Assembly (NCBI GenBank): GCA_030427925.1
Contig: JAUICJ010000003.1
Coordinates: forward strand, 62,001 to 126,000
Source: Bacteroidia bacterium
Lineage (GTDB): Bacteria; Bacteroidota; Bacteroidia; Flavobacteriales_D; Sanyastnellaceae
Reading direction: 5' to 3'
DNA: 64,000 nt
Part shown: one piece after another, positions 48,569 through 61,434 of the stretch
Position numbering within the stretch: position 1 is the stretch's first letter
Layout: each line of letters begins with the position of its first letter
Translations under genes and position numbers: made by a program
Notes under the pieces: generated by a model
The model's database searches: none
What the model saw: the letters and a program-made list of their open reading frames with translations, nothing else
What the model was told of the DNA's origin: nothing

Positions 48569-51500
48569 TCATTGCACGATGAGGCGCTTCGTTTGGTGCC
48601 CCAGTTGGACGCAATACACGCCAGGTTCCCAGTCCGATACCGACCATTGGCGAGCCGCGCCTGGGCCGAATGCCTGTTCGAGGACCACTCGGCCTTGGGC
48701 GTCGGTGATGCGCACGGAGCTCGGTTCGGGCGTTGAGCCGCAGGAAACAAATGCCGTCGCCGGATTCGGTTGAAGCGTCCAACCGATCGGACGGGATTCG
48801 GTTGATTGGATTCCGACAACGGTGGCGTTGGCGGGCAGGACGATTTGGTCCACCCAAGCGGCATCGGCTCCCTCGTTTACGATTTGGTCTTTTTCATACG
48901 CCCATTTCAACGTGTGCGGCCCGCCGAACACCACCACCGATTCCTCGCTCCACGGCACCTCTCCGGACCACTCCCCTTTCAGAACACCATCGACGTAAAA
49001 GCGCAAGTAATCGAACCCCGCTTCGCTGCTGACCGCGCGAGCGAATTCGATGACGCCGTAGTTCACGAGTTCCACGTCCAGCGACAACTCTGTCACAGCA
49101 TTCCCTCCGATGGCTCCACTTTGCATGGACGTGGTTCCTGAGTATGCGGTGGTTTGGGTAGCGAACCAAGGCGCAGCAGCATCGGCCTCCCACGGCCACC
49201 CCCCCGCAACTTCCCAATCTTCCACTTCCAAATCGATTGCCGCCGAACATTCCTCGGACTCCCCTGCATACGGGCCGGCCTCCACCGCCCACGTCCAGTT
49301 CAGCTCGCTACCAGAAGGCGCCTCCGAATCCACCACCACCTGAGCCGTAAACTCGGCAGAGGCCCCCGGAGCCAACTCCGGCCAATTCGTCAGCGCATCC
49401 ACCACGGTCACGGGGCCGCTGAATGCCGCCGCATCCACCACCGCATTCACCGCCGCACCGCCTCCCACATTGGTCAACGTGACCGTCCAGTCCACGGTTT
49501 CTCCCGACTGCAGCCACCCGTCGTTGCCGTCCGCCACGGTGCAGCCGCCCCAGGCCCACTCCGGAGCGCGAACGGCCACCGAAAACCCCGCATCCCAAGC
49601 AAGCCCCCCATCGGCCTCCAGCCCCAACTCAAACACCACCCATTCCCCATCCTCAAAGGCCACCGGCATCAGGTCCACCGCGAAGGCCGCTTCCACCACC
49701 ACCGACGCCCCAGGCGCCAGCGTTCCAAAACTCGCCGGTTCCACGCTCCACGATTCGACCTTCGGATTCGCGGTAGCGATCGTCCCCATCACGTTGAACG
49801 CGGTGTCCACGCCCACGTTCGTCACCTCAACGTCCAACACCAGGTGCTCACCCGATTCTGGGATGCCATTCGCGTTGTTGAGTCCCGTGCCGAAGGCGTC
49901 GATGAAGGCCACCGATTCGTCCACCACATACGGCCCTGTGGGAGGGAGCAGGGAAACGGTGGCTTGGTAAGGCAAGTGGTTGAATGCCGTTCCCGTGAGC
50001 AGCAGCTCCACGGGCTCGTTGATCGGAGCATCGAATACCAAGTTCACCGCCCCGTTTTCCACCCATCCGCGAGCGAGCAAGGCGCCGTCAACCGTGGCCG
50101 CAACGAGTGCTCCTTCCACGGGGCAAAATGCGTCCATGCTGCTCACGCCCAGCGGCATCACCGCATCGTGCGTCAACACCAAGGGCTCCGGCATCGCCGT
50201 GCGAAGCACCGCCGTGGGGTCGCCGAACAAGCACCACGTGTCCATCATCTCCTCTCCGCCGGTTCCGTACGCCTCGATCATCCCGCTGCAGCCGTGGAAG
50301 TGAATGCCCCCGAAGGTGTGCTCCGTCTCCACCGAACCGAGTTCCGCAATGAGCGCGTTCATTTCATCTTGCCCTTCCATCGGCGGCGCCCAGCTTTGCA
50401 ACACGCTCGAAAAGGCACCTCCGATGCCGCCCGTCGCTTCGCCTTCGGATTCGAGTTTGCTCCACACTTCACCGAAGCAATCTCCGGAACCCGTGGCCTC
50501 ATCGAAATCGCCCACGCAGCACCCAACGATGATGAAATATGGCCACATGCCCGCGTTGTGGAGCAGGTCCATGTCGTTGTTCGTAAAGCCCGTCGTGGCG
50601 ATGCTGTTGTGCGAGCCATGCCCCGTGTAATTGATGAGCGAAGCCCCGGCATTCACCGCTGCCGCAAATTGATTGGGACCGGGCGAGCCGTTCGCATCGG
50701 CTGTCGGACCGCCGCTGGGCGAATTGCTCGCTTGGCTTCCATCGTAGAGCTCCTGCACCGCGGTGTAAGTAAAGGCCAAAAGCTGTTCCTTGATGGCGTT
50801 GTTGTGCTGCCAATCGCTTTGTCCATCATCGCCGATCCCGGTTCCTTCCGCACTCCCAATCGCAATGGCGCGGCTGAACCAATCCGTGTCCATCACCGGG
50901 GTCCGTTCGTACTCCAAGGTCCGGTTCACGATGGACGCGATTTCAGCTGCATTGTGGCCCAAAAAGCGCCCCACGAGCAACTCCGGGAAATGATCGTCCC
51001 CCTCGATGTAACCGTAGCACGGATCGCAGTAGCCCGCTCCTCCCCCGTTCACGACCAATTCGGACGGGACCGCATCCTCGTCCCCGACGAGCACAAGGTA
51101 TCCGTATTCCAATTCGGCGTAAGCGTTGGCCACGTAGGCAGCGATTTGGTTCGCGGTGGTACCGGCTTCTGCGACGTCCACCACATCGACCAGCAGGCCT
51201 TTCTCGCGCTTCCATTGGACCCACGGGGCGATAGCCTCGAAGTAGGCGGTGGGCGAAAGGACCAGCACGCGCGCGGTTTCATCGAGTTGGTCGTAGCGAT
51301 CGGGCGCGTAGGCGTTGATGAAGCGTCGTTGGTGCAGCGCCGCGAACATGGGGTCTACCGCCACTTCGACGCGCGGCTCGGGTCCGGGGATGGGCGTGAA
51401 CCGCACGGTCAGGTGGGTGTAGGTCCGGGTGGTTTGGTCGGAGGCGCGGTAGGCTACGGGGTTGAGGTGCAAGGGCTGGCCGATGGCCCCGCGCCAAGCG

Positions 51501-51925
51501 AACTGGGCGCCCAAGTCAATGGGTTGTGCGGGCCAAAATGCCGGTTGCGCATAGGGCGCGCCTTCGGTGCGGGGCACCGTCAAGGGGTCGACGTTGCGGT
51601 AGAGGTTTCCGCGGGACGGCACGACGGGCAGGCCGGTCGACTCCTCGAACTCGGCGGCCTCGATTTCCCACGTCCAACCGGGAGCGGTTTCCAGGGCAAG
51701 GGACGTGGTGAACCGGCACAGGTCGGGGGCGCCCGCTTCGAGGAAGGGAACGGCATCGGGGTGGCGGTACACGACACCGCCTTCGACGGCCGTGGCTTCA
51801 GGTGCAGCGCCGTTCCACGTGAGCAGCGCGGAACCATCGGGCTGTGGGGTCCACGTGGCGCCCGGGATTTGGGCAGCAGCGGTCACGGCTCCGACGAGGA
51901 GCATCGAGAGGAAGTGCAGTTTCAT
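48569..51925 (-). CDS. Gingipain-like C25 cysteine peptidase with T9SS sorting domain
   Basis: The 1118-residue precursor has a signal peptide (MKLHFLSMLLVGAVTAAAQ), a propeptide-like region to about 215, and a C25 peptidase domain at about 215-560. His436 (NYTGHGSHN) and Cys469/470 (IIVGCCVGDF) form the likely dyad. CARDB/Ig-like beta domains follow at about 650-1000. The C-terminal 75 residues are a type A T9SS sorting domain (LQPNPATAFVSCG, DWEPGVYCVQLG). It should act outside the cell. It is convergent with the DjlA-like gene and coupled by ATGA (51922-51925) to the small secreted gene upstream. Confidence 0.9.
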   Translation of the reverse strand: MKLHFLSMLLVGAVTAAAQIPGATWTPQPDGSALLTWNGAAPEATAVEGGVVYRHPDAVPFLEAGAPDLCRFTTSLALETAPGWTWEIEAAEFEESTGLPVVPSRGNLYRNVDPLTVPRTEGAPYAQPAFWPAQPIDLGAQFAWRGAIGQPLHLNPVAYRASDQTTRTYTHLTVRFTPIPGPEPRVEVAVDPMFAALHQRRFINAYAPDRYDQLDETARVLVLSPTAYFEAIAPWVQWKREKGLLVDVVDVAEAGTTANQIAAYVANAYAELEYGYLVLVGDEDAVPSELVVNGGGAGYCDPCYGYIEGDDHFPELLVGRFLGHNAAEIASIVNRTLEYERTPVMDTDWFSRAIAIGSAEGTGIGDDGQSDWQHNNAIKEQLLAFTYTAVQELYDGSQASNSPSGGPTADANGSPGPNQFAAAVNAGASLINYTGHGSHNSIATTGFTNNDMDLLHNAGMWPYFIIVGCCVGDFDEATGSGDCFGEVWSKLESEGEATGGIGGAFSSVLQSWAPPMEGQDEMNALIAELGSVETEHTFGGIHFHGCSGMIEAYGTGGEEMMDTWCLFGDPTAVLRTAMPEPLVLTHDAVMPLGVSSMDAFCPVEGALVAATVDGALLARGWVENGAVNLVFDAPINEPVELLLTGTAFNHLPYQATVSLLPPTGPYVVDESVAFIDAFGTGLNNANGIPESGEHLVLDVEVTNVGVDTAFNVMGTIATANPKVESWSVEPASFGTLAPGASVVVEAAFAVDLMPVAFEDGEWVVFELGLEADGGLAWDAGFSVAVRAPEWAWGGCTVADGNDGWLQSGETVDWTVTLTNVGGGAAVNAVVDAAAFSGPVTVVDALTNWPELAPGASAEFTAQVVVDSEAPSGSELNWTWAVEAGPYAGESEECSAAIDLEVEDWEVAGGWPWEADAAAPWFATQTTAYSGTTSMQSGAIGGNAVTELSLDVELVNYGVIEFARAVSSEAGFDYLRFYVDGVLKGEWSGEVPWSEESVVVFGGPHTLKWAYEKDQIVNEGADAAWVDQIVLPANATVVGIQSTESRPIGWTLQPNPATAFVSCGSTPEPSSVRITDAQGRVVLEQAFGPGAARQWSVSDWEPGVYCVQLGHQTKRLIVQ

Positions 51926-52602
51926 GGGGTGTCGGTTTTCAAGATGGGAAAGGCCAAATGCCCGTCTCCGGGTTTCAGCAGGTAGGTGCCGGGTGGCCGA
52001 TTCGTGAGGTCGGGAGCGGCCGGGAATCGGCCCGTTTCGAGCAACCGACCGGTGGGGCTGTGGAGCGACCACGTGCCCGAGGCCGGCGCGGGTTGGCTCC
52101 ATTGGAGGGGACCGGATGTCGGGTTCGGGTGGGCGCGGACGGTCGGGGTGTGGAGCACCGGACGGGCGTCCAGGGGGCCAGCGGTGAAGGTGAAGTGGAA
52201 GGTGAGGTGGTGTTCGATTTGGCCTTGGGGAAAGACCCAAAACGTGCCCAAAGCCTGCCCCGGAATGCCCCGCGAAGAAAGGAGAAACTTGAGGAACGAG
52301 GGCGCATCGGCCGCAAGAGGGAGCTGCGTTGCACTCGACGGAACGCCCGTATGGCAAACGGTGGGATCGCACGCATCGACCGTCCAGCCCTCGGGCGCCG
52401 ACCACGCCACCCGCTTCCACGCCCAAACCACCGAATCGGTAGCGGCCGCGTCGCCGTAATCCACCTGGACCACCAACACGGTGCTGTCCAATGGCAAATC
52501 GGCCTCGACCACGGTATCCGGATGGAACCAATAGTCGGGGGCTTGGCCCGAAGCCAGCCCGACGGCGAGGAACAACCCGAATGCCAAAAACCCGAACTTC
52601 AT
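51922..52602 (-). CDS. Small secreted protein with probable T9SS sorting end
   Basis: The 226-residue precursor has a signal peptide (MKFGFLAFGLFLAVGLASGQ), a beta-rich central region at about 20-150 (VVEADLPLDSTVLVVQVDYGD, IEHHLTFHFTFTAGP) with two Cys in DACDPTVCHTG, and an end resembling a type A sorting domain (AHPNPTSGPLQW, NRPPGTYLLKPG). I recognise no enzyme motif. The 4-bp overlap with the gingipain-like gene downstream suggests they form one secreted system, perhaps inhibitor or partner and protease. Confidence 0.75.
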   Translation of the reverse strand: MKFGFLAFGLFLAVGLASGQAPDYWFHPDTVVEADLPLDSTVLVVQVDYGDAAATDSVVWAWKRVAWSAPEGWTVDACDPTVCHTGVPSSATQLPLAADAPSFLKFLLSSRGIPGQALGTFWVFPQGQIEHHLTFHFTFTAGPLDARPVLHTPTVRAHPNPTSGPLQWSQPAPASGTWSLHSPTGRLLETGRFPAAPDLTNRPPGTYLLKPGDGHLAFPILKTDTP

Positions 52603-52606
52603 GCAG

Positions 52607-52614
52607 GGAAGATA
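52607..52614 (-). promoter_or_regulatory. -7-like box abutting the gingipain operon
   Basis: TATCTTCC on the minus strand ends 4 nt before ATG 52602, the same spacing as at ligA and GH13. Confidence 0.35.
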
Positions 52615-52657
52615 CGTCGAGGACGCGGCAGGTCTTGGTCGGTGAAGGGGGGCGGCG

Positions 52658-52665
52658 TAATTTGG
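52658..52665 (+). promoter_or_regulatory. -7-like box before the metalloprotease
   Basis: TAATTTGG carries TA and TTTG with spacing one base short of consensus, 17 nt before ATG 52683. Confidence 0.28.
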
Positions 52666-52682
52666 GCTGAAATCTGCAAGCC

Positions 52683-55223
52683 ATGCGCATCACCGCCCTT
52701 CTTCTCGCGGCGCTTTTCGTCGCTGTCCTTCCTTCTGAAAGCCACGCCCAACGGCGAAAACGCCCTTCCGATGCCACCGAAAACGCGTCGACCAAAGGGG
52801 AAAAGAAAGGAAAAAAAACCATCGAAGACCTGACGGAACACGCCATCGCCCATGCGGGGTTGTTCACAGTTTTCCAGGACACGCTGACCGGAGCGTCGCA
52901 TGTGCTGATCCCCGATTCCATGCTCGGTCGCGAGTTCATCTACTTTTCGCAAGTGAGCGATGGCGTCTCGGAGTCCGGCCTGACGCGGGGCAGTTACCGC
53001 GGGTCGAAGATCATCCGATTTGAACGCCACTTCGATCGCATCGAGGTGCACGCGGCGAACACGTCCTATTACTTCGACGAGGCGTCGCCTTTGAGCCGGG
53101 CGGCTGAGGCCAATTTGAACACACCGGTTTTGGCCAGCATCAGCATCGACGCGGAAGACCCTGAACGGGGCTGCCTCATCAGCGGAGACGAACTGTTCCT
53201 CACCGAGCACATGCAAGCGGTGAAGCCGCAGCGGGAAGGCAAAACCGTTTTGGGCAAACTGAACGACGACAAATCCAAGATCACGGCCATCATCAACTAC
53301 CCCGAGAACACCGAGCTCGAGGTGGAATACGTGTACGACAACCCCAAACCTGCTGCGGGAGGAGCCGCTGTGGTGGACGGTCGGGTCATCTCCGTGAAGT
53401 ACCGGCACGCCCTCATCGAAGTGCCGGAGCCCGGATTCATTCCGCGACGCGACGACGAGCGCGTCGGCTACTTCACGACCCGCATCGAGGACATGACGAC
53501 CGACGATCCGATCCCGTGGGCCGACGTGATTCACCGGTGGCGGTTGGAAAAACAGGATCCCAATGCGGCGGTTTCGGACGTTGTGAAACCCATCGTATGG
53601 TGGATGGAGAACACCACACCTTTGGAATACCGCGACCTCATCCGAACGGGGGTGGAAAAGTGGAACCAAGCGTTCGAGGCGGTCGGATTGCGGAACGCGG
53701 TGGAAGTGCGCATGCAACCCGATACCGCCACATGGGACGCCGGCGACATCCGGTACAATGTGCTGCGCTGGACCTCGTCTCCTCGTCCGCAGTATTCGGG
53801 TTACGGCCCGAGTTTCGTGAACCCCCGAACGGGTGAAATCCTCGGTGCGGACATCATGCTGGAATGGGGCGGAATGGTCGGTCGGCTTTGGCGCGCCGAG
53901 GTGTTCGAATCGGCGGGAACGATGGAAGACGAGCGGGACAGCCGGGCCACCTTTGCCGAATGGATGCACCGCTGCGATGCCGGAGCGGCCCAAGCGCAAC
54001 AAACGCTGTTGGGCGCAGCGGTGTTGCGCGCTGCGGGATTGAGCGAAGAGCTGAAGGAACAATTCACCCGGGAAACGCTGCATCGTTTGGTGCTGCATGA
54101 AGTGGGCCACACGCTGGGGTTGAGCCACAACATGGCAGGCACCACCTTGCATTCCTTCGAAGAACTGATGGACCCCGAAGTGGTGATGCAGTCGGGGCTG
54201 AGCAACAGCGTGATGGATTATCCTGCGATTCACTTCACCGGTGACCCGGCCACGCATTCCAAATTCTACGACGATGAACCCGGACCTTACGACCGCTGGG
54301 CCATCGCCTACGGCTACTCCCCCGACGAATCGGCCCTGCCTGCCTTGCTCGAGCGGTCCACGGACCCCACGCTGCGCTTCGGCAACGATGCCGATGACAT
54401 GCGGAGGCCTGGGGGCGGCATGAACCCGGACGTCAACATTTACGATTTGTCGAGCGACCCGGTGGCCTATGCTGCGGCCCGTTGCGATTTGGTTCGGGAA
54501 CTGCTTCCCACGTTGCGCGAGGAGTATGCGGGCGACGACGCCGAGAACCATGCGCTGGTCCGGAAGGCGTTCCTGACGCTGACGGCGGAGTACGCCACGC
54601 AATTGGGCATCATGTCACGCCAAATCGGAGGCGTTCGCTACCACCGAGCGCGCCCCGATCAATTGGACGCTCCCCCGTTGACGCCCGTTTCCGCCGCCGA
54701 CCAACGCGCAGCCATGCAAGCCCTGACCACCTACGCCTTCGCACCGGACGCGTTCAACGCAGAATCCACGTTGTACGCTTATTTGCAAGATCAGCGACGC
54801 GGATTTGGTTACTTCGGCGAACCCGAGGATCCGAAAATTCATGCCCGCGTGCTCACGACCCAAAAGCGCGTCCTCGATCACCTCCTGCACCCCCGTGTGC
54901 TTCAGCGGATCATCGATGCAAGCACTTATGGCAACGAATACGGGCTCGACGCGTACATGGACGAACTCACCGACGCCATCTTCGCGGCGGATTTGAAGGG
55001 AAATGTCAACACCTTCCGACAACAGCTCCAGCTAGAATACATCAAGCGGCTTGCGTCCGCGTATTCCGACGAGAAAAACCCGAATCCGGTTGCACAATCC
55101 ATGATGTTCGCTACGTTGATGAAGGTCCGATCGCAATTGAAAGCGGCTCCCCGAGGGGATGGCTTGACCGCCGCGCACCGCGCCCATGCTGTGCATCTGA
55201 TTGACCTTGTTTTCCAGCCTTGA
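52683..55223 (+). CDS. Secreted zinc metalloprotease (DUF5117/DUF4953 type)
   Basis: The 846-residue precursor has a signal peptide (MRITALLLAALFVAVLPSESHAQ) and a basic low-complexity linker (residues 24-45). A DUF5118/DUF5117-like beta region at about 50-340 precedes a metalloprotease domain with the extended zinc motif HEVGHTLGLSHN at about 472-483, followed by the Met-turn-like segment NSVMDYPAIHF. The HExxHxxGxxH form places it among metzincin-like enzymes. The remaining 350 residues are helical. It probably acts in the periplasm or outside. No T9SS end is seen. It is divergent from the gingipain operon across 80 bp. Confidence 0.9.
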   Translation: MRITALLLAALFVAVLPSESHAQRRKRPSDATENASTKGEKKGKKTIEDLTEHAIAHAGLFTVFQDTLTGASHVLIPDSMLGREFIYFSQVSDGVSESGLTRGSYRGSKIIRFERHFDRIEVHAANTSYYFDEASPLSRAAEANLNTPVLASISIDAEDPERGCLISGDELFLTEHMQAVKPQREGKTVLGKLNDDKSKITAIINYPENTELEVEYVYDNPKPAAGGAAVVDGRVISVKYRHALIEVPEPGFIPRRDDERVGYFTTRIEDMTTDDPIPWADVIHRWRLEKQDPNAAVSDVVKPIVWWMENTTPLEYRDLIRTGVEKWNQAFEAVGLRNAVEVRMQPDTATWDAGDIRYNVLRWTSSPRPQYSGYGPSFVNPRTGEILGADIMLEWGGMVGRLWRAEVFESAGTMEDERDSRATFAEWMHRCDAGAAQAQQTLLGAAVLRAAGLSEELKEQFTRETLHRLVLHEVGHTLGLSHNMAGTTLHSFEELMDPEVVMQSGLSNSVMDYPAIHFTGDPATHSKFYDDEPGPYDRWAIAYGYSPDESALPALLERSTDPTLRFGNDADDMRRPGGGMNPDVNIYDLSSDPVAYAAARCDLVRELLPTLREEYAGDDAENHALVRKAFLTLTAEYATQLGIMSRQIGGVRYHRARPDQLDAPPLTPVSAADQRAAMQALTTYAFAPDAFNAESTLYAYLQDQRRGFGYFGEPEDPKIHARVLTTQKRVLDHLLHPRVLQRIIDASTYGNEYGLDAYMDELTDAIFAADLKGNVNTFRQQLQLEYIKRLASAYSDEKNPNPVAQSMMFATLMKVRSQLKAAPRGDGLTAAHRAHAVHLIDLVFQP

Positions 55224-55428: not shown

Positions 55429-56802
55429 ATGCGCGAAAAAACGCCCACTGATTTGGCCCCCAAACAATTAGCACGGCTCCGGTACGTGCTGCTGGCGGCC
55501 TGCGTCCTGGCGACTTGCGTGCTTCGGAGTCAGCCCGACTTGACGCGGTGGGTCCAGCTCATTGACCAGCGCGCGGGCTACCCCGACTTTGCGGGTTTTG
55601 CTGAACGCCATCCCGATGCGTTCGTGAACGGCGCGGTGCCGCATTTGGCGCAAGAAATCGGTGAGCTCGATGCCCTTGAGAACCGGTTGCTCGCTTGGGA
55701 GAACCTCCCCGATTTAGAGGATCGGGCCGTGCAGGCGTTGCTTTCCGACGGGATGCACCGGTGGCAAGTGCTTGCCGCGTTGGCTGACTTGTACCTGCCT
55801 GAAATCCAACCCCTGGTCGAAGCTGCAGGGCTGCCACGTTCGTTCGCCTGGCTGCCTGCGATGTTGACCGGATTCGATTACGCCTATGAAGGCCCGGGCG
55901 ACCGTGCGGGGTTGTGGGCGTTGGATTGGCCTTCTGCCCAAATCCTTCTCGACTTCACCCAACCCGGCACCGACCCCCGCATGTACGTGAACCTCTGCAC
56001 GGAGGCCGCGGTGACGCAGTTGGCCGTTTTGGCCGAGCGGTTTCCAGCGGAGCCGCACCGCGTGCTGGTGGCGTACGTGAAGGGTCCGGGGTATGCGCGG
56101 AATTGGAGCGGAACGCCGGGCGAAGATTCGGCCTTAGACGAATGGCTCACCCTTTATCGGGTGGTCGCGAGGCTTTGGGAGAACTTGGAGCGGGACCGCA
56201 CCACCGTCGCATGGGTGGAGGACTTTTCGACGTGGGAGCAGGTGCCGTGTCCCGGGCCGGTGGATCGGGTGGCGTTGGTCGAATGGGCGGGGTTGGATCG
56301 GCGGGCCCAACGCACGTATTTGCCGTGGTGGACGGGGACTGAAGTGGACTGTGAAGCGTGGGAAGCGGCGGAGGTGCGGTTGCCACGGGATTTGGCCCAA
56401 CAACTCGGGGAGGTCGACTGGAGTGCCTGGACGCCGCACAGCTTTGCCGATTACAGCCAATCCTCCACGACCGAACACCGCGTCAGCAGCGGCGACGTGC
56501 TGGGACTCATTGCCCGGCGCTACGGGGTCACCGTCCGCGAAATCAAGGAATGGAACGGGCTCAAGACGGACCTCATTCAAATCGGCCAAACCCTGGAAAT
56601 CCGAGGCGTCATCGATGCGACGAAGGCCGACCCGCGCGGCCCAACTTCCGGACGCTACACCATCCACACCGTGGAATCGGGCCAAACCCTCTGGAGCATC
56701 AGCCGAATGTACCCCGGCACCACCGTTGACGCCATCCTCGAACTCAACCCCAGCGCCGAGCCCCTGCTCGCTGGGGCCACCTTGCGCATTCCCCTTCCAT
56801 GA
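55429..56802 (+). CDS. LysM protein with degenerate MltD-like lytic transglycosylase domain
   Basis: The 457-residue protein has a signal or anchor segment at about 18-34 (YVLLAACVLATCVLRSQ). An MltD/SLT-like region covers about 90-240, and two LysM domains lie at about 350-395 (EHRVSSGDVLGLIARRYGVTV) and 409-457 (YTIHTVESGQTLWSISRMY). In active MltD-type enzymes the segment reads YLPxxES followed by AGAAGLWQFM. Here it reads WLPAMLTG and DRAGLWALDW, so the catalytic Glu is Leu146. The YNAGPG element is YVKGPG. It looks like a peptidoglycan-binding pseudo-enzyme. ATGA overlap with the first SGNH gene ties it to the O-acylation cluster. Confidence 0.82.
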   Translation: MREKTPTDLAPKQLARLRYVLLAACVLATCVLRSQPDLTRWVQLIDQRAGYPDFAGFAERHPDAFVNGAVPHLAQEIGELDALENRLLAWENLPDLEDRAVQALLSDGMHRWQVLAALADLYLPEIQPLVEAAGLPRSFAWLPAMLTGFDYAYEGPGDRAGLWALDWPSAQILLDFTQPGTDPRMYVNLCTEAAVTQLAVLAERFPAEPHRVLVAYVKGPGYARNWSGTPGEDSALDEWLTLYRVVARLWENLERDRTTVAWVEDFSTWEQVPCPGPVDRVALVEWAGLDRRAQRTYLPWWTGTEVDCEAWEAAEVRLPRDLAQQLGEVDWSAWTPHSFADYSQSSTTEHRVSSGDVLGLIARRYGVTVREIKEWNGLKTDLIQIGQTLEIRGVIDATKADPRGPTSGRYTIHTVESGQTLWSISRMYPGTTVDAILELNPSAEPLLAGATLRIPLP

Positions 56803-58415
56803 ACCCCGCGAACGCTCCCCATGGTTTGGGCCGCACGTTGATGTTCCTGGCTTCCGTCGGGGCCGTCTGTGCGTTGGCCTCGTGGAGCGGATGGTCGCTG
56901 CGCGTCGGCAACACCACCTTGCTCTCCTTTCCGGAGTGGAGCGCGGAGGACGATTCAGCGATGGTCATCGTCCAGCCTTCCGATGTGGAGGAACTGCTCG
57001 CGACGTATCCCGACGAATCGGCGCTAGCGGATTCCATGGAGCTCGCCCCGATCGAAACGGACGCCCCTCTTCCCGCCTTGGCCGATTGGCTCACCGCAAC
57101 ACAGGCAGCCGCCGAGCACCTGGGCGACTCGGTGGTCACCATGCGCACGCTGAGTGGGGCGTGGGCGGAGCGGCGTGCAGCGGGAACTTGGAAGCCCGAG
57201 GGCCTGCACCCCAACCTGCAGTTCATCGGGGACTCGTCAGCATTTCAGGCGCTTTGGCGATTTTTCGAAACCGCTGCGAGGGGCGGGCAGGCCACGCACG
57301 TGGTGCACTTCGGCGATTCCCAAATCGAAGGGGACCGCATCACGTCCGAACTCCGCCACGCATTTCAGCGGCGATGGGGAGGCACCGGGCCGGGATTGGT
57401 GTCGGCTGTTCCCCAGGCGCAAGTGCCGGGATTCGTGCACGAGGCCGAGGGGTGGACGCGGCACACGCTCTTCGGGAAGCGCGACACGACCCTCGGGCAC
57501 AACCGCTACGGCATCCTCGCCACGGTCGGCCGCTGGGACGCGACCGACACCGCGGCCGAGTGGACCGATCCGATTTCCATGCGCGCCCGCAACATGGGGC
57601 ATGCCCGGAATCGGGTGTGGGCCGCGTTGCACGTGCTGGCCGGCCCGTTGGACAGGGACAGTTTAGCGGTCCAAATCCGTTGCGATTCCACGAACTACGC
57701 AGCCTGGTTGACGGGCGACACCACCGCCAGCGCCCTCCACGTCGCCCTCCCCCCTTCCTGCCGCGAAGTGGAGGTGCGCTTCGAGGCCCCCGGACCCGAT
57801 GTGAATGCGCTGGGCTTCTATGCCGACACCGGGGTGGTGGTCCACAACGTTCCGATGCGCGGCAGTTCCGGCACCCTGTTCAGGAAGGCAGACCGCGCGC
57901 ATTGGACGGCACAGGTCAAGCAACTGAATCCGGGTTTGGTCCTCTTGCAATACGGTGGCAATGCGGTGCCCTATGTGGAGGATGAAGCGGAAGCCCGGCA
58001 GTATGCGCGCTGGCTCGCGTCGCAAATTCGGCTGTTCAAAACCACGCTACCGGGCGCGCCCATCGTCCTCATCGGCCCGTCTGACATGTCCACGAAGGAA
58101 GGCCTGAATTACATCACCTATCCCCTCTTGCCCGCCGTGCGGGAAGCCATGCTGGCGATGGCCCGCGAAGAGCACGTGTTGTTTTGGGACCTCTACGCGG
58201 TCATGGGGGGGCGGAATTCGATGCCCGCTTGGGTGGGCGCCGAACCCGCGCTCGCAGCCGCAGATCACATCCACTTCACGGGACGCGGCGCGCGGCGCAT
58301 TGGGTCGTTGCTCGGGGAGGCGTTCGATGCGGAATACCGGTTGTGGACGACGGCTTTGACGGCTGCGCCTTTGGAGTCCGATTCGTTGCGTTCTGATTCA
58401 CTTGCTGCCCCATGA
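56799..58415 (+). CDS. Membrane-anchored SGNH/GDSL hydrolase-like protein (first of pair)
   Basis: The 538-residue protein has one N-terminal membrane segment (LMFLASVGAVCALASWSGW), a linker, and an SGNH domain. The nucleophile Ser174 lies in HFGDSQIEGD, block III is approximated by LLQYGGN, and the Asp489-x-x-His492 pair lies in AADHIHFTGRGARRIG. The layout (short anchor, periplasmic SGNH domain, MBOAT gene in the same operon) matches acetyltransferase partners such as PatB or AlgX/AlgJ rather than a free esterase. It overlaps both neighbours by ATGA. Confidence 0.82.
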   Translation: MNPANAPHGLGRTLMFLASVGAVCALASWSGWSLRVGNTTLLSFPEWSAEDDSAMVIVQPSDVEELLATYPDESALADSMELAPIETDAPLPALADWLTATQAAAEHLGDSVVTMRTLSGAWAERRAAGTWKPEGLHPNLQFIGDSSAFQALWRFFETAARGGQATHVVHFGDSQIEGDRITSELRHAFQRRWGGTGPGLVSAVPQAQVPGFVHEAEGWTRHTLFGKRDTTLGHNRYGILATVGRWDATDTAAEWTDPISMRARNMGHARNRVWAALHVLAGPLDRDSLAVQIRCDSTNYAAWLTGDTTASALHVALPPSCREVEVRFEAPGPDVNALGFYADTGVVVHNVPMRGSSGTLFRKADRAHWTAQVKQLNPGLVLLQYGGNAVPYVEDEAEARQYARWLASQIRLFKTTLPGAPIVLIGPSDMSTKEGLNYITYPLLPAVREAMLAMAREEHVLFWDLYAVMGGRNSMPAWVGAEPALAAADHIHFTGRGARRIGSLLGEAFDAEYRLWTTALTAAPLESDSLRSDSLAAP

Positions 58416-59740
58416 AACCGAGGCGAATCGCACTGTTGGGCCTGTTGATCTGCTTGGCGCTGATGTCGAGTGAGCGTCCGCCGATGCGCACTTGGGGCTG
58501 GACACCGGGGCGCTATGACACGCTGCTGCGGACGTTGCCGATTCGGCCGCAAGTACTTCAATTCCCCGGCGGGCGCGCGGCATTCGACGAGGTGAACGAG
58601 CGGTTGGCGCAAACCTTGCTGGACGGAAGCGGCGCCCTGCGCGTGGTGCACGTTGGCGGCTCGCATGTGCAAGCGGGCTGGATGGGGGACCAAATCCGGA
58701 AACGCTGGTTGGAATTGGCGGGAACGGCCTGCAGCCGAGGGCTCATCGCGCCCTATCGGATGGCGGGCACCAACACGCCGCCCAAAATCCGAACGGAATT
58801 CACCGGAAGCTGGAGCGGCAATCGGTGTTCGCGCAGTCGGCACCAAGGTCCCTTCGGCGGAACCGGGCTGAGCGCGGTCACTTTTGATGCTTCCGCAACG
58901 TGGTGGCACGCGCTGGTGCGTTCGGATTCGAGCCTGTACTTCAGCGACGTGGTGACCGTGCTGGGGGAATCGAACGGGATGAGGCCGCGGTGGGACGGAC
59001 CGGAAGCGGGTGTGAGCGTGACGCCGTTGGAGGGACGGTCGGGATGGCGCTTGGCATTTGAAGTCCCTGTAGACACGCTGTTCATCGGGTTCGAGTTGGA
59101 CTCGGCTGCGGTCGAAGGACCGCGCTGGTTTCGCCTCCATGGACTGGTGGCGGAATCGCCGAGTTGTTCGTGCGAAGGGTTGGTGTACCACGAAATCGGA
59201 AACAACGGAGCGAGCACGGCCAGCGTGCTGCGTGGGGTGGCGGATGAAGCGTTCGCGCGGGATTGGGAAGCGCTGGCTCCGGATTTGGTCATCTTCGGAA
59301 TCGGCATCAACGACGCCCACGGGCCTGCCGACCGATTCGACCCCGAGGCCTTTGTGCAACGCTACGACAGCCTCGTAAGCAGCATCCGAGCCGTGGTGCC
59401 CGAAACGGCGTTCCTCTACCTGACGAATACCGACAGTTTTTATGGACGACGTCCGAACCCGTCGGCCCTTGCGGTGCGGGAGGCCATGTTCGAATTGGCA
59501 CGGCGGCAGGGAGCGGCGGTGTTCGACCTCTTCGATGCGATGGGCGGCTTGGGCTCGGTGCAGGTCTGGCAGGATGCGGGATTCGCGCGTGCAGACCGCA
59601 TCCACTTCACCCGGGACGGGTACCGCGTATTGGCGGACTTGTATTGGGATGCGCTGCTGGACGCGTGGACCGAGTCGAGCGCGGTAGAGCGCCGGCGTGT
59701 CCGCATTCAAACCACTGACTCGTTGACATGGAAATCTTGA
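58412..59740 (+). CDS. SGNH/GDSL hydrolase-like protein (second of pair, GGS variant)
   Basis: The 442-residue protein has an N-terminal hydrophobic segment (IALLGLLICLALM) and an SGNH fold. Block I reads HVGGSHVQAG, with Ser84 kept but the usual Asp before it replaced by Gly83. Block III is FGIGINDAHG with Asn300, and Asp395/His398 are in ADRIHFTRDGYRV. The catalytic residues are thus present although block I is unusual. It overlaps the first SGNH gene by ATGA and the MBOAT gene by 13 bp. The likely role is acyl transfer to, or removal from, an envelope glycan. Confidence 0.82.
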   Translation: MKPRRIALLGLLICLALMSSERPPMRTWGWTPGRYDTLLRTLPIRPQVLQFPGGRAAFDEVNERLAQTLLDGSGALRVVHVGGSHVQAGWMGDQIRKRWLELAGTACSRGLIAPYRMAGTNTPPKIRTEFTGSWSGNRCSRSRHQGPFGGTGLSAVTFDASATWWHALVRSDSSLYFSDVVTVLGESNGMRPRWDGPEAGVSVTPLEGRSGWRLAFEVPVDTLFIGFELDSAAVEGPRWFRLHGLVAESPSCSCEGLVYHEIGNNGASTASVLRGVADEAFARDWEALAPDLVIFGIGINDAHGPADRFDPEAFVQRYDSLVSSIRAVVPETAFLYLTNTDSFYGRRPNPSALAVREAMFELARRQGAAVFDLFDAMGGLGSVQVWQDAGFARADRIHFTRDGYRVLADLYWDALLDAWTESSAVERRRVRIQTTDSLTWKS

Positions 59741-61434
59741 ACGACTTGATGGATTGGTTCGCCTTCGCACCGGAGGCGCCGTTGACGTTCACCCGGGTGA
59801 GCTTTTGGGGGTTCCTTGCCGTCGTGTTGGCCGGTTTTGCGCTGCTCGAACGGCGGGTCGCGCTGCGGAATGCGTTTTTGTTCGCCGTCAGCTTGTTGTT
59901 TTATTGGAAAACCAGCGGGTGGTTCTTCCTCATTTTGTTGTTTTCCACGGGGAGCGATTGGTGGATTGGGCAGCGGATTGGACAGGCCAACGGGTCGGCT
60001 CGCAAGGGCTGGTTGGCACTGAGTTTGGTCATCAACTTGCTCGTGCTTTTCTACTTCAAGTACGCCTACTTTTTCGCCGACAGCTTGAACCCGCTGCTGG
60101 GCACGCATTGGCAGCCCACGAACGCGTTCGGCGAATGGGCGAATGCAGCGCTTGGCACCTCGTTCCGGGTGGACCGCATTTTGCTCCCTGTGGGCATCAG
60201 CTTTTACACCTTCCAAACCATGTCCTACGCCATCGACGTGTACCGGAAGGAAATCGAACCCGTGCGCAATCCGCTCGACTTCGGGTTCTACGTCAGCTTC
60301 TTCCCGCAACTGGTGGCGGGCCCCATCGTGCGGGCGCGCGACTTCATTCCCCAATTGTACCGGCCGTATGCGCTGACGCGGGCGGGATTCGGGATGGGGT
60401 TGTTCTGGATCCTCAATGGCCTGGTAAAGAAGGTGTGGCTGGCGGATTACCTCGCAGTGAACTTGGTGGACCGGGTGTTTTCGCGGCCCGAAGCGTATTC
60501 GGGGTTCGAGAACCTGCTCGGCCTGTACGCGTACAGCTTGCAGGTCTATGCGGATTTCAGCGGCTACACGGACATGGCCATCGGCGTGGCGATTTGGCTG
60601 GGCTTCCGGTTGCCCCAAAACTTCAATGCACCGTACAAAGCGCGCAACGTGGGTGAATTTTGGAAGCGCTGGCACATGAGCTTGTCCACGTGGCTGAAGG
60701 ACTACCTCTACATTCCGATGGGGGGAAACCGAAGCGGCTCGTTGTTCACGGCCATCACCTCCGGATTCATCCTCCTGTTCTTTGCGCTATTGGTCCCGGA
60801 TCCCGGCGTGTTGTTGGTGGTGGCCGGCGCGCTCTGCCTTGCCTTGGGGGCGGCCCTGTGGTTTCCCAAGTTCAAACGCTGGGGCATCACGAACATCAAC
60901 GTCATGCTGACCATGCTCATCGGCGGGTTGTGGCATGGTGCGAGCTGGAATTTCGTGCTGTGGGGCGGCCTCAATGGGCTCGGCATCGTGGTCTACAAAC
61001 TCTGGCGCAAGGTGAGCCCGTGGGAAGGGAACGACCGGTGGTGGAAGCCGGTGGTGGGAGGGTTGGTGACGTTTCACTTCATCACCGCAACGCGGATTTG
61101 GTTTCGATCGGGCAGCAAGACCACGTGGGAATCCCTCGGCGAGGGGCACAACTTGCTGACCGAATGGTTCACGGCCAATGCGATGATCGCCCAGTTGGCG
61201 CGCATTGCAGAGAGTCCGTTCCTCGAAATCCTAGCGGGCTATGCCCCGCTCGTCGTCTTGATGGCCTTCGGATATGCGATTCACCTCCTGCCTGATGCCT
61301 GGAAAGAGCGGTACCGAAAAGCATTCAGCGAAGCTTCCCTTCCGGTCCAAATCATCGTCGCCGTGGTGGGCATCAGCGTGGCGTGGAGCGCCATGCAAGC
61401 TGGCATGCAGCCGTTCATTTACTTCCAGTTCTGA
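59728..61434 (+). CDS. MBOAT-family membrane O-acyltransferase
   Basis: The 568-residue polytopic protein carries the MBOAT core of AlgI/DltB/PatA type: SFYTFQTMSYAIDVYRKEI, FFPQLVAGPIVRARDFIPQL, YADFSGYTDMAIGVA, FWKRWHMSLSTWLKDYLYIP (His316) and the signature IGGLWHGASWNF with the conserved His403. MBOAT proteins of this type pass acyl groups across the inner membrane to a periplasmic acceptor enzyme. It is translationally coupled (13-bp overlap) to the SGNH pair, which is the expected partner. Whether the target is peptidoglycan, exopolysaccharide or another glycan cannot be read here. Confidence 0.93.
   Translation: MEILNDLMDWFAFAPEAPLTFTRVSFWGFLAVVLAGFALLERRVALRNAFLFAVSLLFYWKTSGWFFLILLFSTGSDWWIGQRIGQANGSARKGWLALSLVINLLVLFYFKYAYFFADSLNPLLGTHWQPTNAFGEWANAALGTSFRVDRILLPVGISFYTFQTMSYAIDVYRKEIEPVRNPLDFGFYVSFFPQLVAGPIVRARDFIPQLYRPYALTRAGFGMGLFWILNGLVKKVWLADYLAVNLVDRVFSRPEAYSGFENLLGLYAYSLQVYADFSGYTDMAIGVAIWLGFRLPQNFNAPYKARNVGEFWKRWHMSLSTWLKDYLYIPMGGNRSGSLFTAITSGFILLFFALLVPDPGVLLVVAGALCLALGAALWFPKFKRWGITNINVMLTMLIGGLWHGASWNFVLWGGLNGLGIVVYKLWRKVSPWEGNDRWWKPVVGGLVTFHFITATRIWFRSGSKTTWESLGEGHNLLTEWFTANAMIAQLARIAESPFLEILAGYAPLVVLMAFGYAIHLLPDAWKERYRKAFSEASLPVQIIVAVVGISVAWSAMQAGMQPFIYFQF

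Follow-up and report, generated by a model that had tools for sequence, protein, structure and literature searches.

A candidate peptidoglycan O-acetylation cluster of Bacteroidota with a LysM protein of MltD descent

Peptidoglycan O-acetylation governs resistance to lysozyme and also the enzymes with which the cell cuts its own wall. In the PatA-PatB-Ape1 systems of Neisseria and Campylobacter, the MBOAT protein PatA works with an anchored SGNH transferase, PatB, and an Ape1 esterase is encoded in the same cluster. The motif tyrosine of PatA is acetylated from acetyl-CoA, and the acetylated motif peptide donates to PatB (Anderson et al. 2025, PMC12148441); in N. meningitidis, the lytic transglycosylase (LT) LtgA binds Ape1, with mutual stimulation (PMC7083599). 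Within Bacteroidota, Weadge, Pfeffer and Clarke (2005, PMC1199599) proposed peptidoglycan O-acetylation (OAP) clusters with the order ape1b-ape1c-pat in B. thetaiotaomicron, B. fragilis and P. gingivalis, and they reported measured values of 27.0% and 69.4% for O-acetylation in the two Bacteroides species. Against these heavily O-acetylated walls stands a 2024 review in which Pat enzymes are given for Pseudomonadota and Campylobacterota only, and in the open-access literature (subscription journals lie outside this coverage) no subsequent experimental study of the Bacteroidota cluster was found. Here we analyzed a four-gene cluster in a 64,000-nucleotide stretch, hereafter the window, from the genome of a Bacteroidia bacterium (GCA_030427925.1, contig JAUICJ010000003.1, positions 62,001 to 126,000). 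On the + strand it encodes, in order, a LysM/pseudo-MltD protein (gene 1), two SGNH proteins (SGNH1 and SGNH2) and an MBOAT, in a genome of 2.95 Mb (99.5% complete) in which no DUF459 (PatB family) gene was found. We consider the cluster, with a probability of about 0.6, to be the Bacteroidota form of the OAP system, supplying candidate enzymes for each O-acetylation step in this phylum.

Consecutive genes overlap by 4, 4 and 13 bp, in agreement with an earlier sequence-only reading of the window that had taken the four for one unit, and this unit recurs across Bacteroidota. Its features are as follows.

55429–56802, + strand: gene 1, an exported LysM protein of 457 amino acids whose MltD-type LT domain is catalytically degenerate
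55657–56421, + strand: MltD-fold region of gene 1 (residues 77–331), with Leu for the catalytic Glu (fold, VIA-align to 8rhe; residue, alignment column)
56476–56601, + strand: LysM domain 1 of gene 1 (residues 350–391; Pfam PF01476)
56650–56793, + strand: LysM domain 2 of gene 1 (about residues 408–455; Pfam, and the profile of alignment A1 to the MltD LysM 1e0g near the C-terminal end)
56799–58415, + strand: gene 2, SGNH1, a membrane-anchored Ape1-like SGNH protein, the proposed acetyl-transferase standing in for PatB
56835–56885, + strand: N-terminal hydrophobic anchor of SGNH1, then a linker of about 110 amino acids (homologue median) to the catalytic Ser
57318–57320, + strand: nucleophile Ser174 of SGNH1 in GDSQ, invariant (108/108)
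58412–59740, + strand: gene 3, SGNH2, an Ape1-like SGNH protein with an inserted beta domain between blocks I and II, the proposed O-acetylesterase
58661–58663, + strand: nucleophile Ser84 of SGNH2 in the variant block I GGSH (89/89)
59728–61434, + strand: gene 4, the MBOAT O-acyltransferase, PatA/DltB-like
60934–60936, + strand: invariant catalytic His403 of the MBOAT
61414–61431, + strand: C-terminal FIYFQF of the MBOAT, an FXYXXF acyl-Tyr shuttle motif with Tyr565 (motif function, PMC12148441)

The MBOAT-SGNH acyl-transfer logic proposed in the sequence-only reading is supported by the residues of both partners. Pfam placed gene 4 in MBOAT (E 1e-23) and both SGNH proteins in GDSL_2 (SGNH1, E 6e-11; SGNH2, E 4e-15). 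Across 90 aligned MBOAT sequences, the catalytic His403 was present in 87/87 that were ungapped at its position and Tyr565 in 83/83, and nearly every complete MBOAT ended in FIYFQF or a close form; the His and the C-terminal FXYXXF are both shared with the PatA-PatB-Ape1 systems. SGNH1 is the exported or anchored partner with intact catalytic residues: Ser174, Asn388, Asp489 and His492 were found in all 108 sequences, and an N-terminal hydrophobic segment in 89 of these 108. The anchor and linker are likewise as in PatB, and the median spacing from anchor to catalytic Ser was 111 residues in SGNH1 versus 58 in SGNH2.

Among close relatives, the order LysM-SGNH1-SGNH2-MBOAT recurred; overlaps of 4 bp were common, and several of these genomes did not have the window's flanking genes around it. 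Profiles run on 60 related genomes found SGNH1 together with the MBOAT orthologue (scoring above about 450 bits, where other MBOATs reached at most 351) in 36, neither in 23, SGNH1 only in one and the MBOAT only in none; G020, with a weak, remote match, was scored as lacking SGNH1. Presence of the two was therefore concordant in 59/60 genomes (Fisher p 1e-15, kinship of the genomes uncorrected). For the phylum, the SGNH1 alignment was compared with a collection of 84,980 species, one genome each, and the best 80 of at least 584 stretches were taken as loci. These came from Flavobacteriales, Bacteroidales (Draconibacterium, Maribellus), Cyclobacteriaceae, Saprospiraceae and others. The linkage of a pat gene to Ape-type SGNH genes that characterizes OAP clusters was found as SGNH1-SGNH2-MBOAT in 64/80 loci, while 8/80 had SGNH1-MBOAT without SGNH2, and half of the remaining loci were cut by contig ends. 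A LysM gene lay directly 5′ of SGNH1 in 56/80, overlapping it in half of those. The four-gene set is no chance grouping, given that most loci repeat its order and that SGNH1 co-occurs so consistently with the MBOAT; the MBOAT gene normally stood with the others, and a general separation of its homologues from them was not seen. In an even sample of the phylum, 55/296 genomes had an SGNH1 match. Of 20 loci from this sample, nearly all had the MBOAT gene near SGNH1, about half had SGNH2 and one had the LysM gene; three showed the order SGNH1-MBOAT-SGNH2. Finally, five loci of relatives (L046, L053, L062, L063 and L066) had LysM-SGNH1-MBOAT, in which the LysM protein (160–310 amino acids) persists without an LT domain and without SGNH2.

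In profile searches of the PDB, SGNH1 matched N. meningitidis Ape1 (4k3u) on top (E 1e-35) and C. jejuni Ape1 second, with PatB at E 0.1 only; its Ape1-type fold with inserted domain comes from the sequence profile only. PF04311 (DUF459, PatB family) gave no match to SGNH1, and on SGNH2 it scored 13.9 bits against a cut-off of 27.2. We infer that SGNH1 is the transferase, as it is the sole SGNH protein that always accompanies this MBOAT and has PatB-like topology.

For SGNH2, the same search again placed 4k3u on top (E 1.5e-40), then C. jejuni Ape1, and the predicted structure (pLDDT 90) aligned to 4k3u along its entire length and with the inserted domain covered (Z 37.5, 342 residues). Z scores against Ape1 structures were 37.5, 35.2 and 34.7, compared with 17.1 for the best non-Ape SGNH fold; the model thus has the SGNH fold with a domain between blocks I and II that typifies Ape1. 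SGNH2 and Ape1 (4k3u, 8gkd) share the fold, the inserted beta domain, an NGA block II and the catalytic residues, which were nearly invariant across 90 sequences. They differ in that SGNH2 is only a predicted esterase and carries GGSH in block I, a variant correctly noted in the sequence-only reading: the second Gly was found in 86/89 homologues and GDSH in three, with the nucleophile Ser invariant. SGNH2, dispensable and Ape1-like throughout, is probably an O-acetylesterase rather than a second transferase. At one locus (L058) it is fused to two LysM domains. Two other assignments were rejected. Alginate-type acetylation by AlgI/AlgX was dropped, with neither PF16822 (ALGX) nor PF14286 (DHHW) among the SGNH1 or SGNH2 matches up to E 1, and cytoplasmic esterases were ruled out by the N-terminal hydrophobic segment in most homologues.

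In gene 1, Pfam recognized two LysM stretches (E 5e-24), and SLT remained below threshold (14.8 bits, cut-off 21.3). The AlphaFold2 model (pLDDT 81) resembles P. aeruginosa MltD (8rhe) by Foldseek (E 5.6e-12) and by VIA-align (Z 17.4, rmsd 5.3, 243 residues). Gene 1 accordingly shares with MltD its fold and C-terminal LysM domains, but has lost the catalytic Glu and is linked to acylation genes. Because Leu replaces this Glu, we regard gene 1 as a pseudo-enzyme of MltD descent and not as a working member. In most gene 1 proteins of the clusters the Glu column holds L, A, T, I, V, C, M or Q, whereas the Glu is retained in 12 Bacteroidales loci (L138, L140, L143, L147, L154, L155, L157, L158, L160, L165, L168 and L169; a thirteenth E, in L156, was excluded from the count because it sits in an unalignable stretch). 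The dead LT fold of the sequence-only reading therefore stands for this window, but as a derived state; it was rejected as a defining trait of the cluster. In one FastTree tree, rooted on a single outgroup, the cluster LTs formed one clade (0.993) separate from the Glu-bearing housekeeping MltDs encoded in the same genomes, and inside it the Bacteroidales proteins that retain the Glu (0.995) were sister to the Glu-less ones (0.928). On the simplest reading of these sequences, catalysis would have been lost once, after recruitment of an MltD to the cluster. In L140, L154, L155, L157 and L158, the cluster extends a parA-parB-DUF5683-MltD run, the MltD there having its Glu.

The pairing of an LT with Ape1 recalls the LtgA-Ape1 complex (PMC7083599), although LtgA is Slt-type and active, and gene 1 MltD-type and catalytically degenerate. 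Gene 1 would exemplify the natural conversion of a wall-cutting enzyme into a partner without catalysis, and it makes the transglycosylase-Ape1 link testable.

The three-gene core is not new, because it is the same kind of cluster as the ape1b-ape1c-pat OAP cluster proposed in 2005. Both have the SGNH-SGNH-MBOAT order, two Ape1-type SGNH genes and no Ape2/PatB, and two SGNH genes with an MBOAT, which the sequence-only reading had held to be outside the textbook arrangements, equal the OAP arrangement (patA-patB-ape1 or ape1b-ape1c-pat). The passages of PMC1199599 that were consulted name no LysM/MltD gene. Ape1c is described there as missing the insertion that is present in SGNH2, and motif I is given as GDS(H/F), versus GDSQ in SGNH1 and GGSH in SGNH2. 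From PatA-PatB-Ape1 the cluster differs in gene order and in having a LysM gene. Searches of the open-access literature for MBOAT with SGNH and LysM, or for flavobacterial MBOAT with GDSL, returned nothing about this cluster, nor was a description of an MltD-derived LysM addition to an OAP cluster found there. What appears to be new is this MltD-derived LysM subunit, the loss of its catalytic residue and the putative replacement of PatB by SGNH1.

From the observed gene linkage, catalytic residues, folds, co-occurrence and topology signals, a working scheme can be proposed. The acyl group taken up by the MBOAT would most likely be acetyl, supplied by acetyl-CoA, and His403 would load it onto Tyr565 of the C-terminal FIYFQF. 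SGNH1, presumably held at the inner membrane by one helix and the long linker, would accept the group on Ser174 and pass it to the glycan strand, presumably to the C6 hydroxyl of N-acetylmuramic acid, thereby doing PatB's job with an Ape1-type fold. SGNH2, as an Ape1-type esterase, would take the acyl group off again. The LysM protein would bind the glycan and probably position or stimulate the SGNH enzymes rather than cut; a role in placing the complex on the glycan is plausible. The Ape1-like character of the two SGNH proteins and the MltD descent of the LysM protein make peptidoglycan the likely target, in line with the sequence-only reading. We propose more tentatively, at somewhat below even odds, that PatB-less acetylation in Bacteroidota arose as an Ape1-derived SGNH1 became the transferase and a recruited MltD lost its Glu once to become a glycan-reading regulatory or positioning subunit. 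The surprise would lie in the recruitment and inactivation of MltD, and the use in roles assigned, in a form open to testing, to the parts of a system that lacks PatB.

Several observations weigh against the OAP reading. Block II Gly, typical of esterases, is retained in both SGNH1 (106/108) and SGNH2 (88/89), unlike in PatB, a DUF459 protein in which Ser or Asn takes its place; it is gene content and topology that point to the Ape1-like SGNH1 as transferase. Several genera of the family have the four genes dispersed, with the MBOAT, SGNH2 and LysM protein still encoded elsewhere in the genome. One genome (G029; L218 7338–8468) has a relic pseudo-MltD at the syntenic place and has lost SGNH1, SGNH2 and the MBOAT, and in two distant genomes a fatty-acyl-AMP-ligase-like gene lies between SGNH1 and the MBOAT gene (L206 2832–4559; L210 2557–4260). 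The shared block II Gly, with all catalytic residues present in both SGNH proteins, would suit reversed or shared roles, with SGNH2 (or both proteins) acting as transferase and SGNH1 as esterase, as would the unusual GGSH of SGNH2 and the overlap of its gene with the MBOAT gene in the window. We consider this unlikely: several MBOAT-SGNH1 clusters lack SGNH2, which is therefore not an essential acceptor there, the PatB-like anchor and linker are on SGNH1, and the NGA block II of SGNH2 is that of Ape1. As transferase markers, both the block II residue and the residue before the catalytic His (Ile/Val in SGNH1 and SGNH2 alike) were dropped. The ligase-like genes suggest that L206 and L210 encode a Dlt-like system with a different acyl group, which may therefore vary in some lineages. 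That the cargo here is itself another acyl group, delivered by an acyl-adenylate ligase like D-alanine in the Dlt system, would also fit DltB being the closest solved structure and NCBIfam match of the MBOAT. It seems very unlikely, with no ligase or carrier gene in the window's cluster and none seen within those of close relatives, and with the C-terminal tyrosine motif on the MBOAT itself, as in acyl-CoA users, and not on a separate DltX.

LysM is able to bind other N-acetylglucosamine polymers, and the same machinery might O-acylate capsule, lipopolysaccharide or exopolysaccharide, with the LysM protein merely tethering it to the wall. MBOAT-SGNH pairs do act on alginate, cellulose and secondary wall polymers (PMC12148441), and in the dispersed genera a methyltransferase gene precedes the MBOAT gene at loci L078, L080, L083 and L085, in several cases together with a polysaccharide deacetylase gene. 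A target other than peptidoglycan is nevertheless improbable, given the Ape1-type fold of SGNH2 with its inserted domain, the MltD ancestry and LysM domains of gene 1, and the absence of glycan biosynthesis genes directly flanking the cluster in the window. Moreover, at eight loci of the scattered-gene genera (L050, L051, L055, L057, L061, L074, L075 and L029) SGNH1 adjoins an OmpA-type gene, of a peptidoglycan-binding class; it follows there a TPR-PD40-OmpA gene related to CHU_0125/PorE (type IX secretion). It might also be argued that the LysM/pseudo-MltD gene is a mere neighbor without a role in acylation: in Bacteroidales its homologue ends the parA-parB-DUF5683-mltD run, so that SGNH1 may just have landed downstream, G029 retains the pseudo-LT alone, and the LysM gene is not upstream of SGNH1 in 18/80 loci. 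Its frequent, often overlapping position directly before SGNH1, the SGNH2-LysM fusion, the separation of the cluster LTs from housekeeping MltDs and the survival of LysM after loss of the LT domain make this reading unlikely.

On its 5′ side the cluster is preceded by a DUF4953/DUF5117 Met-zincin gene ending at 55223, and on its 3′ side come a gene on the minus strand that weakly matches CarboxypepD_reg and, after it, meaB. A promoter scan found no sigma-70-like site, a result of little weight because Bacteroidota promoters differ from the sigma-70 type. The genome has eight MBOAT matches at seven places; three MBOAT genes besides that of the cluster lie inside 15 kb on another of its contigs (C1, 25–40 kb). 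Elsewhere in the window, the minus strand has a very long open reading frame (48569–52939) whose C-terminal end resembles a type IX secretion sorting sequence; its true start probably lies further in, because the N-terminal part overlaps the + strand protease gene.

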